Shown piece after piece: positions 22,752 through 30,997 of a DNA stretch of 40,988 bases. Under the pieces are notes generated by a model. The model saw nothing but the letters and a program-made list of their open reading frames with translations. It had not been told where the DNA came from and did no database searches. Origin of the DNA: Streptomyces ossamyceticus (lineage in GTDB: Bacteria; Actinomycetota; Actinomycetes; Streptomycetales; Streptomycetaceae); assembly GCF_001418475.1 (NCBI RefSeq), contig NZ_LIQX01000034.1:1-40988 (forward strand), read 5' to 3'. The position numbers and the translations under genes are program-made. The stretch's first letter is position 1, and each line of letters begins with the position of its first letter.

Positions 22752-25715
22752 CTACCTGTCGCCCGGGCCTTCCACCAGCCCCAGCATCCGCTCCGCCTCG
22801 GCACGACGCGCGACCGCCGTCTCGTCCTCCTGGCTGCCGGCGCCGCCACCGTCGCCGTCGGCGCCGCCGACTCCGTCGCCACCGCCGTACGCGGCCAACA
22901 CACTCCGCGCCCGCCCCGCCGCGTCGGCCGCCCTCCGAAGGTCCGCCTCCAGCCACCCGGCCGCGAGTTCCGCGCCGGTCCGCGCGTCGAGGAAGTCGGC
23001 CCCCAGGGAGCCGTACACCGCCACCGCCCGCTCGACGAGCGTCAGCGCCTCCTCGAACACCGCCCGGTACGCGTCGAGTTCGGCGTCCTCGGCGACGGAG
23101 CGGGCGAGCAGGTCGCCGAACTGCCGGTACGTCTCGCCGAGTTCCGCGTGGATCCGCAGCCGGTTCTCCTCGCCGGTCACATCCGACAGGGCCGCCTCGC
23201 ACCCGGCCACCGCGTCACCCATCAACTCCCTGGCGGCGTCGAGCCCCGTACCCTCCTGCGCCGCGTACCAGGCCCGCGCCCGCAGCGCCCGCACATACCC
23301 GTGGACGTTGCCCAGCTCTCCCCACAGGGTGCCCGCGCGCTCGTACGCCCGGTCCGCCTCGGCGGGCAGCCCCGCGCGGGCGAGGGCCTCCGCGGCGAGG
23401 TGCGCGAGCACGGCGTGGTCGCGCTGCTCGGGCCAGTGCCGGGTGATGTCGGCGGCCCGCAGCCACCGGTCGGCCGCCTCACGGTGCTCGCCCATCTCGG
23501 TGTGGCAGTCGCCGAGCCACCACAGGGTCTGGGCTACGGCCCCGTCCCCGTGGATCTCGGCGGTCAGGTCCAGCAGGGCCGACTCCAGCACCTCCGCGGC
23601 CTCCGCCCACCGCCCCTGCCGCAGCAGGAACCCGCCGAGCAGATGCCGGGCCCAGGAGCCGAGCGTCCGGCTCTCACCGGCCTCGTCGGCCCAGTGTGCC
23701 GCCTCCAGCGCGTGCGCGGCGCCCGGCTCGACCCGGTCGGCGGCCCCGAGGAGCTCGGCCAGCTGGACATGGAGCTGAGCGTGGCCCATCGGCTCCAGAT
23801 CCGTACCGCCGTGCTCCAGCGCCGCGCCGGCCGCCCGCTCGGCCCGCTCCAGATCCCCGAGCTGCTGCGCGAGCCCGGCCAGCCGGGCCTCGTACTGCAC
23901 CGCGAACCAGGGCGCCCCGGCCGTCACATAGCGTTCCGCGGCCTCCTCGAACAGCGCGGCGGCGGTCTCCGCGTCCCCGCCGCGCTCGGCCAGCTCCCCG
24001 AGCATGGCCCGCGCCTCCGCGGCCCGCGAGGCCAGCCGCACGTCCTGCTCACGGCGCGGTTCGACGAACTCCGCCAGCTCCCGCACGGCGGCCTCGGCGG
24101 CGGGCACCGCGCTCTCGTCCGGGTCCGCCTCCTCCAGCCGCTGCATGAGTATCCGGGCCCGCCCCACCAGCACGGACGCCGTCTGCCGAAGCCCCGTGGC
24201 GCCGCCCGCGTGGAGCGCGAGGACCTTCTCGTACGGCTCGGACAGCAGCTCCAGCGCTTCCTCGGTGTGCCCGTTCAAGGCGTGGACCGTCGCTCCGCGC
24301 GCGCGTGCCGCGAGCGCCTCGCCCAGGTCACCGGCCTCCTCGTACAGCTCGGCCGCGTGCTCGAACAGGGTGCGTCCCTCGGGCCCGAGGCCGATCGCCC
24401 GGTGGTCGACGATCTCCGCCCTGTCATGGGCGTCCAATTCCGCGCCGTCCGCCTCGGCGGCCCGCGCCACCGCGGCCCACGCGCCCACGGAGTCCGGATG
24501 CAGGGACTCGGAGAGCCGCCGCGCCTCGGCGAGGAGCGCGGGCAGGTCGTCCCGCGCCGGTGCCGCCTCGGCGCGCTCCACGGCCAGGGGCTGCCGGGGC
24601 GCCGGGACCGTGCGCGTCGCCCGCACGCCCAGCGGCAGCCGGTCCACGAGCGGTGGCTGGTCCATGCGCTCCCGGACGTGGGTGCTGACGTACGCCGTGC
24701 CGTTGCGCTCGTCGAACCGGGCGGCCAGGGACAGTGCCTCCGCGCGCGCGTGTGCGGCCAGTTCGGCGGCCGTCCAGGTACGGCCGGCGGGACCCGGGAC
24801 CGTCTGATCGGCGAAGCCACGGCTGACCAGGCGGTCCATGAGGAGCGCCACCACGGCCGCGAAGTCCGCTTTGCTGCGCGGGTCCCCGGAGTCCGTGAAG
24901 TACGCCGGCCGCTCGGCGAGCAGCTCAAGACCGCGGGCCTCGTTGCCGGTCAGGGCGCAGAACTCCACGTGGTCCGCGTACGCGCCGCGCATGCTCTCCA
25001 TGGCCCGCACCAGCCGGAAACCGCGCAGATGGTGGGCGCGCGCCTCGTCCGGGCGGCCCAGCCGCAGCAGCGGCAGCAGGGAGGACGCCAGAGCGGTGTG
25101 CGGTTCGTGGGCGCAGGTGTACTCGCCCTCCAGGACCGGCGCCCACAGCCGCAGCGCCTCGGCGTCGCGCCGCTGCCGCGCCTGCCACCAGCCCTGGCCG
25201 TGCAGCTCGCACGCGTGGCAGTCGGCCATGCTGTCCCGGTCGGCCGCCAGCCACGCCTCGTACGCCCGCTCGGCCCGCGCCAGGTCACCGACGTGCGCGG
25301 CCACACTGAACTCGGCGCTGCGCACAGCCCGTTCCGAGTGCCCGGCGAGCCGGTAGCGGTGCTCCATCTCGCCGAGCCACTTCTCGATCGAGGCGAGCGG
25401 CACATGCGGCTGGTTGAGCATGCCGGCCGACATCCACTTGAACACCCAGTGCAGCGAGTGGACCTCGTACTCGTCGAAGTCCTCGGGGCGCTCGTCCCAC
25501 ATGCGCAGCAGGCGCGCGAAGGGGACGAACATCTTGTCCTTCTCGGAGCTGTAGTTGTAGACCTTCAGCTGGTGCCCGAGCGCCTCGATCACGGCGAGCG
25601 GGATGTTCAGCTTCTCGGCCTCGGCGAGCAGCCGCTCCGCGCGCGCGTTGCGGGCGGGGCCCTCCGGCTGCTCGTAGTTCTCCGCCATGGCCCGGCGCAG
25701 TTCGTCGAAGTCCAT
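22752..25715 (-). CDS. Large helical-repeat (TPR-like) protein paired with an HSP90-family gene
   Basis: 987 residues. It starts MDFDELRRAMAENYEQPEGP; ATG at 25715 has GAGGG 5 nt upstream. An alternative in-frame GTG lies at 25727. Most of the protein is Ala/Leu-rich antiparallel helices with TPR spacing, for example LARAERAYEAWLAAD, AGDLGEALAARARGATVHAL, and LGDCHTEMGEHREAADRWLR followed by AADITRHW. A Gly/Asp-rich linker precedes the last helix. No signal peptide, membrane segment or enzyme motif is seen, so it is probably a cytoplasmic scaffold. Its start is 8 nt after the HSP90 stop, so the two are cotranscribed and may act together, as TPR co-chaperones do with HSP90 in eukaryotes (analogy only). 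Confidence 0.8.
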   Translation of the reverse strand: MDFDELRRAMAENYEQPEGPARNARAERLLAEAEKLNIPLAVIEALGHQLKVYNYSSEKDKMFVPFARLLRMWDERPEDFDEYEVHSLHWVFKWMSAGMLNQPHVPLASIEKWLGEMEHRYRLAGHSERAVRSAEFSVAAHVGDLARAERAYEAWLAADRDSMADCHACELHGQGWWQARQRRDAEALRLWAPVLEGEYTCAHEPHTALASSLLPLLRLGRPDEARAHHLRGFRLVRAMESMRGAYADHVEFCALTGNEARGLELLAERPAYFTDSGDPRSKADFAAVVALLMDRLVSRGFADQTVPGPAGRTWTAAELAAHARAEALSLAARFDERNGTAYVSTHVRERMDQPPLVDRLPLGVRATRTVPAPRQPLAVERAEAAPARDDLPALLAEARRLSESLHPDSVGAWAAVARAAEADGAELDAHDRAEIVDHRAIGLGPEGRTLFEHAAELYEEAGDLGEALAARARGATVHALNGHTEEALELLSEPYEKVLALHAGGATGLRQTASVLVGRARILMQRLEEADPDESAVPAAEAAVRELAEFVEPRREQDVRLASRAAEARAMLGELAERGGDAETAAALFEEAAERYVTAGAPWFAVQYEARLAGLAQQLGDLERAERAAGAALEHGGTDLEPMGHAQLHVQLAELLGAADRVEPGAAHALEAAHWADEAGESRTLGSWARHLLGGFLLRQGRWAEAAEVLESALLDLTAEIHGDGAVAQTLWWLGDCHTEMGEHREAADRWLRAADITRHWPEQRDHAVLAHLAAEALARAGLPAEADRAYERAGTLWGELGNVHGYVRALRARAWYAAQEGTGLDAARELMGDAVAGCEAALSDVTGEENRLRIHAELGETYRQFGDLLARSVAEDAELDAYRAVFEEALTLVERAVAVYGSLGADFLDARTGAELAAGWLEADLRRAADAAGRARSVLAAYGGGDGVGGADGDGGGAGSQEDETAVARRAEAERMLGLVEGPGDR

Positions 25716-25723
25716 GACGTCCC

Positions 25724-27577
25724 TCACGGTCGGCCGCCCTCCCCGGGCCCGCTCTCGCTGTGCGTGGCCCACTCCAGGAGGCCTATGAACGCGCGGTTCA
25801 GGAGCGCCGAGTCCGCCGGCCTGAGCGGTCGCTGCGCCATCAGCAGGGCCTGCCCGTACAGGGACTCGGTGGCGGTCCCGATCAGCTCGGGATCGCGCAG
25901 GGCACCGATCCGCCGGACGAGCGGGTTGAGGTGGTTCAGCACCAGCCGCGCGCGCGGGGCGCTGCCGCGCAGCGAGCCGAGGATGCCCGCCCACAGATCG
26001 TCGGCCTGCTCCTCGGCCTCCGCGCGGGCCTGCTCGTGCCGGGAGGAACGGTCGTCCAGGTGCAGCGCGGGCACCGACAGCGGATGGAACGCCCGCAGCA
26101 CGACATCGCAACCCAGGGGGTCGAGCTTCGCCCGCGCGGCCGACAGGAAGCCCGCCAGCGCCAGCTCCTCGTCCGGGTCGGGCGCGTCCAGATGCGCGGT
26201 CACCGTGTCGGCGTCCAACTCGGCGACCATCGTGCCCGGCCGCACCGACGGCAGTGCCTCGACCAGCTCGCTGTCGTACGTGTAACCGCCGTTGATCACC
26301 CCGACGCCCTGCGCGGAGGCGATCGGCGCGACCTGGCGGTACTCCTCCACCGTCCGCGTGAAGTGCACCACCGGGTGCCGCTGCGCGAACTCCTCCAGGG
26401 ACAGCCGCCCGTCGGTCGTCTCGAAGGGCAGCCACGGCAGCATCGTGCGCAGCATCTCCTTGTCGTGCCGCGCCAGGGACTTCACTCCCAGGTAGTGCAC
26501 CGAGAGGAAGGCCGCCAGCCGCTCCGGATCACCCGCGGCGAGACCGGTCAGCCACCCGCGGATCCGCTCGCCCAGCGCCTCCCGGACGGCAGCGAGGGTC
26601 TCGTCCTCGTACAGCGACTCACGGGACGCCGTGGGCCGCAGACTGTCCGTGTCGAGCACACAGCGCACGAAGAACGCCCACTCCGGCAGCAGCTGTTCGG
26701 CCCGCTCCGTGAGCAGCATGCCCTTCAGGTGCACCCGGTGGCCCACCCGCTGCGCCGGGCTGACCGCGGACGGCAGCACGTAGGCCACGCCCCGCACCCC
26801 GGCCAGCGGCACGTCCAGCTCGATCGCGTCCAACGGGGTGAACCCGAACAGGTCGTGGCAGTGCCGCGCGAGAGCCACCCGCCGGGTGGCGGGGGAGGGG
26901 TACGGGCGGTCCCAGGGCGCCGGCAGATCCGTGACGGCCTCCTCGCCGACCCGCACGTCGTACGGCAGCAGCGAGCCGAAGTCCCGCGCCAGCGACAGCA
27001 CGCGCGTGTGCGAGAGCCACTCCGCCGCTCCCGGCCGCGCGACCAGATGCACGGTCGTCCCCGGCTCGGGGCGCGCCTCGTCCGGCAGCGTCCGCACCGT
27101 GTACGAGCCGTCGTCGGTCGCCGTCCACTCCACGGGCGCCGCGTCCGGTGTACGGGCGCTGCGGCTGACGACCCGGATGCGCTCGGCGACCACGAAGCAC
27201 GCCAGCAATCCGATGCCGAACTGCCCGAGGAAGTCCGAGCGGACCTCCTGCAGCCCGTCGGCCCGCTTGGAGCTGCGGCCGATCGTCGCGAGGAGACTGT
27301 GCACGTCGGACTCGGTGAGCCCCACGCCGGAGTCCTCCACCCGCAGCGCGCCGCCCTCGGCGAACAGCCGCACCCGGGCGGGCGCGTCGGGTTCCTCGGC
27401 CCGCCGCGCGGTGATCGCGTCCACCGCGTTCTGCAGCAGCTCGCGCAGGTAGACCTTCGGACTGGAATAGAGGTGGTGCGAGAGCAGATCCACCAGGCCA
27501 CGCAGATCGACCTGGAACGTGTGAGGTGACTGTGGAGTCCGGGATGCCTGGGATGACTGTGAGGTCATTGAGTCCAT
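25724..27577 (-). CDS. HSP90-family (HtpG-like) ATPase
   Basis: 617 residues, close to E. coli HtpG. The N-terminal GHKL ATPase has YLRELLQNAVDAI near residue 45 (catalytic Glu and Mg-binding Asn), RVEDSGVGLTESD, and GQFGIGLLACFVVAERI (lid and Gly motif). The middle domain retains CVLDTDSLRPTASRESLYED, matching the conserved SRE loop whose Arg contacts ATP. The C-terminal domain is divergent and lacks a clear canonical dimerisation helix. ATP turnover is therefore expected, but the client range may differ from HtpG. ATG at 27577 (MDSMTSQSSQ) has only a weak ribosome-binding site; a second ATG is at 27568. The downstream partner is the helical-repeat gene. Divergent from recG. Confidence 0.88.
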   Translation of the reverse strand: MDSMTSQSSQASRTPQSPHTFQVDLRGLVDLLSHHLYSSPKVYLRELLQNAVDAITARRAEEPDAPARVRLFAEGGALRVEDSGVGLTESDVHSLLATIGRSSKRADGLQEVRSDFLGQFGIGLLACFVVAERIRVVSRSARTPDAAPVEWTATDDGSYTVRTLPDEARPEPGTTVHLVARPGAAEWLSHTRVLSLARDFGSLLPYDVRVGEEAVTDLPAPWDRPYPSPATRRVALARHCHDLFGFTPLDAIELDVPLAGVRGVAYVLPSAVSPAQRVGHRVHLKGMLLTERAEQLLPEWAFFVRCVLDTDSLRPTASRESLYEDETLAAVREALGERIRGWLTGLAAGDPERLAAFLSVHYLGVKSLARHDKEMLRTMLPWLPFETTDGRLSLEEFAQRHPVVHFTRTVEEYRQVAPIASAQGVGVINGGYTYDSELVEALPSVRPGTMVAELDADTVTAHLDAPDPDEELALAGFLSAARAKLDPLGCDVVLRAFHPLSVPALHLDDRSSRHEQARAEAEEQADDLWAGILGSLRGSAPRARLVLNHLNPLVRRIGALRDPELIGTATESLYGQALLMAQRPLRPADSALLNRAFIGLLEWATHSESGPGEGGRP

Positions 27578-27716
27578 CGTCGCAGCGCCGGTGGGGTGGG
27601 GGTCGGGCGACGGCGCGGGGTAGGGCGGTCCCACGAGACGGTGACCGCGGACGGGAGGCGGCACGGGCCTTCGCTACAGGCCCGGGAGTGCGCCATCCTA
27701 GGCGCGAACGACCCGC

Positions 27717-27769: not shown

Positions 27770-30700
27770 ATGGATCTCGTGCCCGCGCTCGAAGAACCGC
27801 TCAAGAACACGCTCGGCGCCGCCACCGCGAAGGTGATGGCCGAGCACCTCGGCCTGCACACCGTCGGAGACCTGCTGCACCACTATCCCCGCAGGTACGA
27901 GGAGCGTGGGCAGCTCACCCACCTCGCCGACCTGCCCATGGACGAGCACGTCACGGTGGTCGCCCAGGTCGCCGACGCCCGCCTGCACACCTTCGCCTCC
28001 GCCAAGGCCCCCCGCGGCAAGGGCCAGCGCCTCGAGGTCACGATCACCGACGGCAGCGGCCGCCTCCAGCTGGTCTTCTTCGGCAACGGCGTGCACAAGC
28101 CCCACAAGGAGCTCCTCCCCGGCACCCGCGCCCTCTTCGCCGGCAAGGTCTCCGTCTTCAACCGCCGCCTCCAGCTGGCCCACCCGGCGTACGAACTGCT
28201 GCGCGGCGAAGACGTGTCGGAGACGGTCGACAGCTGGGCGGGCGCCCTCATCCCGATCTACCCGGCCACCGCCAAGCTGGAGTCCTGGAAGATCGCCAAG
28301 GCGGTGCAGACGGTCCTGCCGAGCGCCCAGGAGGCCGTGGACCCCCTCCCCGAGTCCCTGCGCGCGGGCCGGGGCCTGGTCCCCCTCCCCGAAGCCCTGC
28401 TGAAGATCCACCGTCCCCACACCAAGGCGGACATCGAGTCCGCCCGGGACCGCCTCAAGTGGGACGAGGCCTTCGTCCTCCAGGTCGCCCTCGCCCGCCG
28501 CCGGCACGCCGACGCCCAACTGCCCGCCGTGGCCCGCCGCCCCACCCCGGACGGCCTCCTCACCGCCTTCGACGCCCGCCTCCCGTTCACCCTGACCGAG
28601 GGCCAGCAGAAGGTCTCCCGCGAGATCTTCGACGACCTCGCCACCGAACACCCGATGCACCGGCTGCTCCAGGGAGAGGTGGGCTCCGGGAAAGCCCAGC
28701 CCCTCGATTCATTGGTCCTGACGCCTTCGGGATTCCGGCGCATGGGCGACCTCTCGCCGCGGGACGAGGTGATCGTGCCCACCGGCGAGATCGCCCTCGT
28801 GGACGGTGTCTTTCCCCAGGGAGAGCGTGATGTGTGGCGCGTCGTACTCTCCGACGGAAGCTCCGTGGAATGCGATGACGAGCACCTCTGGATCGTCGGC
28901 ACCAGTTGCGGATGGCACCGCAGGCAAGCACCCAAGGTGATGACCACACGGGAGATCCGCCAGGACCTTCACAAGGCCAATGGTTCATCGAAGTGGTACA
29001 TCCCTTCAGCGACCCCGGTCGACCTCGGAGACGACTCTGCGCTGCCTCTCGATCCCTACCTGTTCGGCCTGCTTCTGGGAGACGGTTCCTTCCGCCACAA
29101 TCTGCGCGTGTCCACCGTCGACCCCGAGATCCACGATGCCGTGGCGACGTCCGTGGCACCGGAATGCCGACTCGTGCCCGTCGCGGGTTCCCGCTGCGAC
29201 TACACGATTCAGCCGACGCGGCGCCTGGGTGGCGCCCGCAACCCCGTGATCCAGACGCTGCGGGACCTTGGCCTGTGGGGCGTGACGGCTCACGGCAAAT
29301 TCGTCCCCGAAGTGTTCAAGAACTCGTCGATCAAGAACCGCCTCGCATTGCTGCAGGGGCTCCTGGACACCGACGGCACCGTGGATGGGAACGGGCTGAG
29401 CGTCTCGCTCTGTTCTACCTCTCGCAGACTCGCGGAGGACGTCGCGTGGCTCGTACGGTCGCTCGGCGGCCGCGCCCGAGTGCTGCCGCAGAAAGCCGCC
29501 TTCAATGTCTCGGTGGCCCTTCCCGACGTGTTTCCTCCGTTCCGGCTGACCCGAAAAGCCGAACGAACTCGTCCTCGGCCGAAGTACAACACATTCCGGC
29601 GAGGCATCCGCGATGTCGAATACGTGGGACGAAAGCCCGTCCAGTGCATCAGCGTCGCCCATCCCAGCCACGCGTACATCACGGACCACTTCACTGTCAC
29701 CCACAACACGATGGTGGCCCTGCGCGCCATGCTCGCCGTGGTGGACGCCGGTGGGCAGGCGGCCATGCTCGCGCCGACCGAGGTGCTCGCCCAGCAGCAC
29801 CACCGGTCGGTGACGGAGATGATGGGCGAACTGGCCGAGGGCGGCATGCTGGGCGGCGCCGAACACGCCACCAAGGTCGTGCTGCTCACCGGTTCCATGG
29901 GCGCGGCGGCCCGCCGTCAGGCGCTCCTCGACCTGGTCACCGGCGAGGCCGGCATCGTCATCGGCACCCATGCGCTGATCGAGGACAAGGTGCAGTTCCA
30001 CGACCTGGGCCTGGTCGTCGTCGACGAACAGCACCGCTTCGGCGTGGAGCAGCGCGACGCTCTGCGCGGCAAGGGCAAGCAGCCGCCGCACCTCCTCGTC
30101 ATGACGGCCACGCCCATCCCGCGCACCGTCGCGATGACCGTCTTCGGCGACCTGGAGACCTCGGTCCTCGACCAACTCCCCGCGGGCCGCTCGCCGATCG
30201 CCAGCCATGTCGTCCCCGCCGCCGACAAACCGCACTTCCTCGCCCGCGCCTGGGAGCGGGTCCGCGAGGAGGTGGAGAACGGCCACCAGGCGTACATCGT
30301 CTGCCCCCGCATCGGCGACGACATCGACGAACAGACCGGCCCCGGGAAGAGCAAGAAGTCCCCGGAGGACGAGGCGGAGAAGCGGCCGCCGCTCGCCGTC
30401 CTCGACATCGCCGACCAGCTCGCCCAGGGCCCCCTGCGCGGCCTCCAGGTGGAGGTCCTGCACGGCCGTATGCACCCGGACGACAAGGACGCGGTCATGC
30501 GCCGCTTCGCCGCCGGCGAGACCAAGGTCCTGGTGGCGACCACGGTCATCGAGGTCGGCGTCAACGTCCCGAACGCCACGGCGATGGTCATCATGGACGC
30601 CGACCGCTTCGGCGTCTCCCAGCTCCACCAGCTCCGCGGCCGCGTCGGCCGGGGGTCCGCCCCTGGTCTCTGCCTCCTGGTCACGGAGATGCCCGAGGCC

Positions 30701-30997
30701 AGCGCAGCCCGCCAGCGCCTGGGCGCCGTCGCCTCCACCCTCGACGGTTTCGAACTCTCCCGCATCGACCTCGAACAGCGCCGCGAGGGCGACGTCCTCG
30801 GCCAGGCCCAGTCCGGCGCCCGCACCAGCCTGCGGATGCTCACCGTCATCGACGACGAGGAGATCATCACGGAGGCGAGGGAGGAGGCGGCGTCGGTGGT
30901 GGCCGCCGACCCGGAGCTGGAGTCCTTCCCGGGCCTGAGGACGGCCTTGGACGCCCTCCTGGACGAGGAGAGGGAGCAGTACCTGGAGAAGGGCTGA
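27770..30997 (+). CDS. recG: ATP-dependent DNA helicase RecG interrupted by an intein
   Basis: RecG remodels stalled replication forks and branch-migrates Holliday junctions. From ATG 27770 (MDLVPALEEPLKN) the precursor has 1075 residues; removing the 338-residue intein leaves 737, a normal RecG length. The N-extein (residues 1-308) has the wedge/OB domain (GSGRLQLVFFGNG) and ends with GEVGSGK. The C-extein (429 residues) starts with Thr and carries the remaining helicase motifs: LAPTEVLAQQHH, VVVDEQHRFGVEQ, MTATPIPRT, VEVLHGRMHPDDK, ATTVIEVGVNVPNAT and QLRGRVGRG. The intein splits the Walker A sequence GSGK|T, so unspliced protein should not bind ATP. An in-frame GTG at 27755 is an alternative, possibly leaderless, start. 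rsmD follows after 129 nt. Confidence 0.96.
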   Translation: MDLVPALEEPLKNTLGAATAKVMAEHLGLHTVGDLLHHYPRRYEERGQLTHLADLPMDEHVTVVAQVADARLHTFASAKAPRGKGQRLEVTITDGSGRLQLVFFGNGVHKPHKELLPGTRALFAGKVSVFNRRLQLAHPAYELLRGEDVSETVDSWAGALIPIYPATAKLESWKIAKAVQTVLPSAQEAVDPLPESLRAGRGLVPLPEALLKIHRPHTKADIESARDRLKWDEAFVLQVALARRRHADAQLPAVARRPTPDGLLTAFDARLPFTLTEGQQKVSREIFDDLATEHPMHRLLQGEVGSGKAQPLDSLVLTPSGFRRMGDLSPRDEVIVPTGEIALVDGVFPQGERDVWRVVLSDGSSVECDDEHLWIVGTSCGWHRRQAPKVMTTREIRQDLHKANGSSKWYIPSATPVDLGDDSALPLDPYLFGLLLGDGSFRHNLRVSTVDPEIHDAVATSVAPECRLVPVAGSRCDYTIQPTRRLGGARNPVIQTLRDLGLWGVTAHGKFVPEVFKNSSIKNRLALLQGLLDTDGTVDGNGLSVSLCSTSRRLAEDVAWLVRSLGGRARVLPQKAAFNVSVALPDVFPPFRLTRKAERTRPRPKYNTFRRGIRDVEYVGRKPVQCISVAHPSHAYITDHFTVTHNTMVALRAMLAVVDAGGQAAMLAPTEVLAQQHHRSVTEMMGELAEGGMLGGAEHATKVVLLTGSMGAAARRQALLDLVTGEAGIVIGTHALIEDKVQFHDLGLVVVDEQHRFGVEQRDALRGKGKQPPHLLVMTATPIPRTVAMTVFGDLETSVLDQLPAGRSPIASHVVPAADKPHFLARAWERVREEVENGHQAYIVCPRIGDDIDEQTGPGKSKKSPEDEAEKRPPLAVLDIADQLAQGPLRGLQVEVLHGRMHPDDKDAVMRRFAAGETKVLVATTVIEVGVNVPNATAMVIMDADRFGVSQLHQLRGRVGRGSAPGLCLLVTEMPEASAARQRLGAVASTLDGFELSRIDLEQRREGDVLGQAQSGARTSLRMLTVIDDEEIITEAREEAASVVAADPELESFPGLRTALDALLDEEREQYLEKG
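28694..29707 (+). mobile_element. Class 3 intein with LAGLIDADG homing endonuclease in RecG
   Basis: A 338-residue in-frame insertion. It begins AQPLDSLVLTPSGFRRMGDL (Ala1, no Cys or Ser) and ends HFTVTHN followed by Thr of the extein. Block B is GSSVECDDEHLW with His64 and Trp66 at B:12. Block F is VQCISVAHPSHAYI with Cys318 at F:4. Block G is FTVTHN with Thr336 at G:5, then His337 and Asn338. Trp66-Cys318-Thr336 is the WCT set that defines class 3 inteins, in which the block F Cys replaces residue 1 as first nucleophile (family knowledge). Between them lies a LAGLIDADG endonuclease with both motifs: LFGLLLGDGSF (Asp130) and LLQGLLDTDGTV (Asp227). No stop or frameshift is visible. A/T-ending codons are more frequent than in the exteins, suggesting later acquisition. 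Confidence 0.93.

Follow-up and report, generated by a model that had tools for sequence, protein, structure and literature searches.

A putative mobile class 3 intein with a predicted LAGLIDADG endonuclease in the Walker A loop of Streptomyces RecG

The window analysed here, a 40,988-nt stretch of contig NZ_LIQX01000034.1 of Streptomyces ossamyceticus, carries a recG gene that is interrupted within its Walker A codons. We interpret the interruption with high confidence as a mobile intein of the rarer class 3 type, equipped with a LAGLIDADG homing endonuclease and lodged in the Walker A loop of the chromosomal RecG. The evidence comprises its position, the residues that mark class 3, HINT and endonuclease folds in a structure prediction, and its pattern of presence and absence across Streptomyces.

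The insert in recG and its class 3 signature

The recG open reading frame runs from an ATG at 27770 to a stop codon at 30995–30997. It contains an insert at 28694–29707 (1014 nt), which adds 338 stop-free codons in the same frame as recG. The Walker A motif GEVGSGK|T is thereby split between Lys and Thr, with the codons GAG GTG GGC TCC GGG AAA (E V G S G K) on the 5′ side of the insert and ACG (T) on the 3′ side. Without the insert, RecG has 308 + 429 = 737 residues. An initial annotation of this DNA had given the same in-frame interval, the same split of GSGK|T and the same length for the uninterrupted protein, and all three proved exact. The whole interrupted protein scores as RecG (NCBIfam PRK10917.2-1, 1129.2 bits against a cut-off of 995), and Pfam matches to the RecG wedge, DEAD and Helicase_C domains identify the host as a RecG orthologue. 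On the 3′ side, recG is followed by an RsmD-like methyltransferase gene and then a CoaD-like gene, names that we base on Pfam and on the known order of these genes; both genes are present at 80/80 RecG intein loci (the best 80 of 134 relatives). Between a fakA-like gene and recG lie an Hsp90-like ATPase gene and a TPR-repeat gene (22752–27664, minus strand). The Hsp90-like gene occurs at 56 of the same best 80 of 134 loci, within the ≤4 kb upstream that were examined, and its product has a weak PADLOC similarity to TmtA that is confined to the ATPase part. The features of the interrupted gene are as follows.

27770–28693, plus strand: RecG N-extein, 308 aa, with Walker A GEVGSGK at its end (NCBIfam RecG match on the whole protein)
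28694–29707, plus strand: putative class 3 intein, whole element, 338 aa (residues, relatives, predicted fold)
28694–28696, plus strand: Ala1, the N-terminal position without a nucleophile; Ala in 107/107 RecG inteins
28868–28891, plus strand: block B ECDDEHLW, with Asp61 (DxxH), His64 (B:10) and Trp66 (B:12)
29060–29086, plus strand: first LAGLIDADG motif, LFGLLLGDG (Asp130)
29303–29494, plus strand: Pfam Hom_end PF05204 match (3.6e-6, residues 204–267), with the second motif LQGLLDTDG (Asp227) inside
29645–29647, plus strand: Cys318 (block F:4), predicted initiating nucleophile (residue position, relatives)
29699–29707, plus strand: Thr336 (G:5), His337 (G:6) and Asn338 (G:7) (residue position, relatives)
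29708–30997, plus strand: RecG C-extein, 429 aa, from the Walker A Thr+1, plus the stop codon

The insert carries each sequence hallmark of class 3. Position 1 is Ala1, and so lacks a Cys, Ser or Thr nucleophile; His B:10 stands in its DxxH form (D61-x-x-H64); Trp66 lies two residues after His64, at B:12; and Cys318, at F:4, is 20 residues ahead of the terminal Asn. The THN|T junction supplies the G:5 Thr, G:6 His, G:7 Asn and Thr+1. This combination (Ala1, H-x-W, the block F Cys at the same distance from the last Asn, THN and Thr+1) recurs in all 107 distinct RecG inteins, each inserted at exactly this K|T point. More broadly, the WCT trio with His B:10 and His-Asn is complete in 210/210 rows (82 others, 18 PhoH and 110 RecG, the last containing duplicates). 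The junctions are equally constant, reading GEVGSGK|AQP on the left and THN|T on the right at each of the best 80 of 134 relatives. Three RecG inteins (L022, L024 and L027) have an additional inner HN-T besides the true THN|T junction. Class 1 is ruled out by Ala1, and class 2 by the presence of the block F Cys. The equivalent residues in Mycobacterium chimaera DnaB-1 are His65, Trp67, Cys124 and Thr143 (PMC7664689). A second Cys, Cys60, just ahead of DxxH, is kept in 105/107 RecG inteins and replaced by Ser in L240 and Ala in L247, both shortened. The initial annotation had already placed the Ala start, the His-Asn end, Trp66, Cys318 and Thr336 as we find them, and none of W66, C318 and T336 falls outside its class 3 position in any of the 107 RecG inteins.

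Pfam splicing models (Hint, Intein_splicing) gave no match to the RecG intein protein. PF14890 (Intein_splicing) had zero matches across the S. ossamyceticus genome, while matching 6/14 control genomes, and sequence motifs and structure were therefore used instead. An AlphaFold2 model of the intein, built with 60 aligned sequences, reached a mean pLDDT of 94.7 and a pTM of 0.92. Foldseek placed PI-SceI at the top, with class 3 DnaB inteins at rank 17 and below. In VIA-align, the whole chain matched PI-SceI (1ef0_A; Z 27.0, 3.0 Å over 313), and the splicing part matched the M. smegmatis class 3 DnaB intein (6bs8_C; Z 21.1, 1.5 Å over 123) and M. chimaera DnaB-1 (6rix/6riy; Z 20.4). Among the matches listed, class 3 DnaB inteins head those to the splicing domain only, followed by gp41-1 (Z 18.8). 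The class 3 split intein AceL NrdHF (6zgq) stands at rank 43 (Z 15.6), beneath many class 1 inteins, so that class is not given by fold rank alone. By sequence, phmmer matched gp41-1 (2.5e-6) and 6bs8 (1.8e-5). The model thus has a HINT splicing fold without a Pfam splicing-domain match, and the Hint-domain check proposed in the initial annotation comes out negative with Pfam and positive by structure. Sequence and model together support the assignment of the insert as a putative class 3 intein, as the initial annotation had proposed.

The two LAGLIDADG motifs, which the initial annotation lacked, contain Asp130 and Asp227, which we take to be the catalytic residues from knowledge of this motif. 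A LAGLIDADG_3 match (PF14528, 6e-9, residues 216–260) lies within the Hom_end stretch. The two motifs with their acidic residues, together with the fold, identify a predicted LAGLIDADG homing endonuclease. Under a simple motif-and-length test, 61/107 RecG inteins are full length with both motif Asp residues and 46/107 fail. In the 15 shorter RecG inteins that were mapped, mainly residues 133–200 are gone and the splicing blocks are kept. Estimates of dN/dS are ~0.08 for the splicing parts versus 0.16 for the nuclease part (600 random pairs, 79 full-length inteins), values that are rough because pS, near 0.55, is near saturation.

Distribution, mobility and relatives

Within Streptomyces, RecG is not an unusual host. 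By a hand count at identity ≥48%, at least 70 of 392 Streptomyces genomes, S. ossamyceticus included, carry a RecG intein; the match is single and full in 44 of them and broken or partial in the other 26. Every one of these 26 and 12/44 full matches were read at the DNA level, and all were in RecG; the remaining 32 genomes were assigned to RecG by identity ≥67%. A smaller draw gave a similar picture: 59/61 drawn genomes yielded a RecG N-extein match, and 11/59, again including S. ossamyceticus, were occupied (8 read as such and 3 by match adjacency), while 48 were read as empty. In these 48 intein-free RecG sites, K is followed directly by T. A scan of the genome collection for the insert returned, among the best 80 of 134 relatives, 79 Streptomyces loci and one from Actinacidiphila (L062), complete chromosomes among them. 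Class 3 matches of any kind occurred in 116/296 genomes, a figure that pools inteins of RecG, PhoH and other hosts and cannot serve as a RecG count. The 107 distinct RecG inteins comprise 94 that remained from 110 RecG rows after removal of duplicates and 13 read later; with the same site and residues in all of them and 48 empty sites alongside, the insertion is not a matter of chance. The initial annotation had regarded RecG as an unusual bacterial host for this class; it overrated this rarity, given the Streptomyces count, Actinacidiphila and a Rhodococcus plasmid.

The composition of the intein differs from that of its host gene. In S. ossamyceticus, GC3 is 0.79 in the intein versus 0.955/0.956 in the RecG exteins, and the means over 94 alleles are 0.82 versus 0.94/0.95. 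Trees of RecG and of the intein were built from 116/117 rows, one occupied row with a short N-extein being omitted and occupied rows being over-sampled; 25 empty and 13 occupied sites read later are in neither the trees nor the independent-pairs test below. On the RecG tree, presence and absence require 21 changes, against a mean of 21.1 for shuffled labels. The intein and RecG trees are correlated (Spearman 0.76, with 0/500 permutations as high), and of 39 intein splits with support, 22 contradict RecG splits that are themselves supported. The correlation and the conflicts together point to inheritance over short times and to transfer or loss over longer ones; the correlation also fits much vertical inheritance.

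The P-loop Ser codon is associated with occupancy. It is TCN at 103/107 occupied versus 29/48 empty sites (Fisher p 3.8e-8, a test that ignores kinship). In 15 independent pairs, over 200 random pairings, TCN went with the intein 6.9 times on average and against it 0 times (median p 0.016, range 0.004–0.125). Among the eight codons ahead of the insertion, the Ser codon differs most between occupied and empty sites; the Gly codon 7 before the insertion shows a weaker difference (p 0.0006), to which we assign no meaning. Four occupied alleles have AGC, one of them with an intact nuclease by motif. A drift of broken-nuclease inteins away from TCN was unsupported (TCN in 60/61 intact versus 43/46 others, p 0.31). 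The Ser-codon association is compatible both with nuclease recognition and with co-conversion of flanking sequence, and proves neither of these, nor cutting.

To place the element among its relatives, a class 3 tree was computed from 12 RecG, 18 PhoH and 70 other rows, identical ones removed; it covers class 3 only and has weak deep branches. Alignment A2 holds 18/80 RecG and 41/80 viral loci. The Streptomyces RecG inteins have as their sister (98*) an intein in a RecG encoded on a Rhodococcus rhodochrous plasmid (NZ_CP120357.1), a host that NCBIfam recognizes as RecG (2.8e-194) at 647.7 bits, under the model cut-off of 718. Its site, RLLQGDVGSGK|T, matches RLLQGxVGSGK|T, and the inteins are 48% identical, whereas the Rhodococcus gene is plasmid-borne and its exteins are just 33% and 44% identical to those of S. 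ossamyceticus. Next in the tree is an intein at HPVGAGK|T of a 2042-residue open frame (L184), with 47% identity. Low GC3, scattered presence, tree conflicts, eroded nucleases and the Rhodococcus sister all argue for a mobile element rather than an oddity of one genome.

Phage sequences contain many more distant relatives. The RecG intein matched 769/50,697 phage records at E 0.01, and PHROGs matches fell in families with names such as DNA primase, terminase and helicase loader, probably owing to inteins inside family members; we draw no function from these matches. At the viral class 3 loci that were read (80 of 200 relatives), 62/80 inteins interrupt their host at GK|S or GK|T, and in 18 of these the complete GxxxxGK is present. 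No close donor was found among the 50,697 phage records (best identity 37%) or among the best 80 of 200 viral relatives (43–46% at best), and a phage origin is thus a placement and not a traced transfer. The RecG intein lineage probably comes from a large class 3 pool in P-loop ATPases of phages and plasmids, and a jump between P-loops via plasmids or phages is its likely history.

Proposed splicing route and alternative readings

We infer that the RecG intein splices and that its endonuclease cuts. The proposed route follows class 3 chemistry as described in PMC5222942 and PMC6195587. After translation, Cys318, with His64, Thr336 and Trp66, would attack the Lys-Ala1 bond to form a branched thioester at block F. 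The N-extein would then be transferred to Thr+1, cyclisation of Asn338 would release the intein, and an O-N shift would restore GSGKT and the 737-residue RecG. Because the insert separates the Walker A Lys and Thr, the precursor should be without ATPase activity; Thr+1 would serve both as splicing nucleophile and as Walker A residue, so that the precursor has no intact P-loop. In homing, the endonuclease would cleave the P-loop codons of a recG without the intein, where a copy of the element would then be inserted.

RecG is not known to be essential in model bacteria. Its loss could therefore be tolerated, and the insert might be a decayed intein that retains the right residues, no longer splices and leaves RecG dead. 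We consider this very unlikely. Parts of the element do decay, as the 46/107 inteins that fail the intact-nuclease test show, and a class 3 pseudogene is on record (Arsp-FB24 Arth_1007). In that pseudogene, however, Cys F:4 and His B:10 are gone, whereas the splicing residues are complete in 107/107 RecG inteins, nuclease-eroded ones included; the low dN/dS of the splicing parts and the score of the exteins above the RecG cut-off also speak against decay. An error of assembly or annotation, or a separate gene overlapping recG, has a negligible probability in our view. We found nothing in favour of it; the genome is a draft in 1008 contigs. The same in-frame insert, with the same site and precise junctions, is present at 80 loci of other assemblies, complete chromosomes included, and rsmD and coaD accompany it at 80/80, which excludes an assembly error. 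An overlapping gene is ruled out by the continuity of the frame and the precise junctions.

By analogy with the mycobacterial DnaB class 3 intein, the element might have been retained by some Streptomyces because it works as a post-translational switch that holds RecG inactive until splicing is permitted, for example by redox or metal state. We judge this improbable, if less so than decay. Splicing of DnaBi1 of M. smegmatis, an intein of the same class and at the same kind of site, a P-loop, is inhibited by H2O2 (PMC6195587), and the title of PMC7360933 reports zinc inhibition. The persistence of RecG inteins without an intact nuclease and the conservation of Cys60 would also suit a switch. 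Against it, Cys48, the partner Cys in DnaBi1, aligns with Val47 of the RecG intein, and the random-looking presence and absence across Streptomyces does not point to a needed regulator. A redox trap of the DnaBi1 type (Cys48 + Cys118) is ruled out, the aligned place having no Cys. Were the switch real, the Walker A loop would come together only once class 3 splicing was permitted, and fork remodelling by RecG could answer redox or other stress without new transcription. The reading that we prefer remains that of a mobile element of class 3 carrying a LAGLIDADG homing endonuclease.

Published hosts and comparison with known class 3 inteins

RecG appears among the intein hosts in Table 1 of a 2018 review (PMC5874633), under 'Eubacteria', in an entry that gives no class, species or site. 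The initial annotation had not counted RecG among the well-described sites. No account of a class 3 intein in RecG turned up in the open-access literature searched, and an earlier record is possible. Published class 3 hosts include DnaB, PhoH, TerL, RecB, Snf2 and IcmO, a range for which the initial annotation's 'mostly phage DnaB-like helicases' was too narrow. Streptomyces TdS inteins are also in print (PMC5050341). RecG is a new and well-populated host for a known kind of element, not a new kind. With it, a chromosomal repair helicase joins the hosts of class 3 inteins, and a single culturable genus offers >100 natural alleles together with many relatives that lack the intein. This wealth of alleles and intein-free relatives makes it a good system for studying class 3 homing, nuclease loss and any regulation of hosts by P-loop inteins, and the alleles are a source of Thr+1 class 3 splicing domains for protein engineering.

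Several further inteins and intein-like matches came to light alongside. One Streptomyces genome (G315) has a class 3 intein at the P-loop AGCGK|S with Ser+1 (L094), in a host that is UvrD-like by eye. Enterobacterial plasmid matches (H45–H49) are intein-like and 37.6% identical to the RecG intein, and one is annotated as conjugation TraD. Thr+1 is usual, and the class 3 inteins of Mycobacterium phage Phrappuccino (L235/L142) and L119 have Cys+1 at KSGK|C or KTGK|C, in hosts annotated as DarB-like or terminase.

The class 3 inteins in P-loops of phage helicases, terminases and DarB-like proteins share the class 3 signature with the RecG intein and differ from it in their phage hosts, with ~30–46% identity. 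PMC5050341 places TerL1-a inteins at the same Lys|Thr point, leaving their class unstated, and states class 3 for TerL1-c, -d, -e and RecB. The mycobacterial PhoH intein described in PMC6195587 resembles the RecG intein in its class, its nuclease motifs and its location on an actinobacterial chromosome. PhoH inteins differ in that their site, YMRGR|T, lies outside the P-loop and they form a separate clade (100*). We read 18 PhoH loci with an intein at YMRGR|T. One is a second class 3 intein in the S. ossamyceticus genome itself, beyond the 40,988-nt window and absent from the initial annotation (L085, 855–1934, minus strand, contig C76); it has WCT, nuclease motifs, Ala1 and Thr+1 and is ~40% identical to the RecG intein. 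DnaBi1 of M. smegmatis (6bs8) and M. chimaera DnaB-1 (6rix, 6riy) share WCT, DxxH, the P-loop site and the fold with the RecG intein. The DnaB-1 inteins, with 26–31% identity to it in the structural alignment, are nuclease-less mini-inteins of a replicative helicase with Ser+1, whereas the RecG intein carries a nuclease and has Thr+1.
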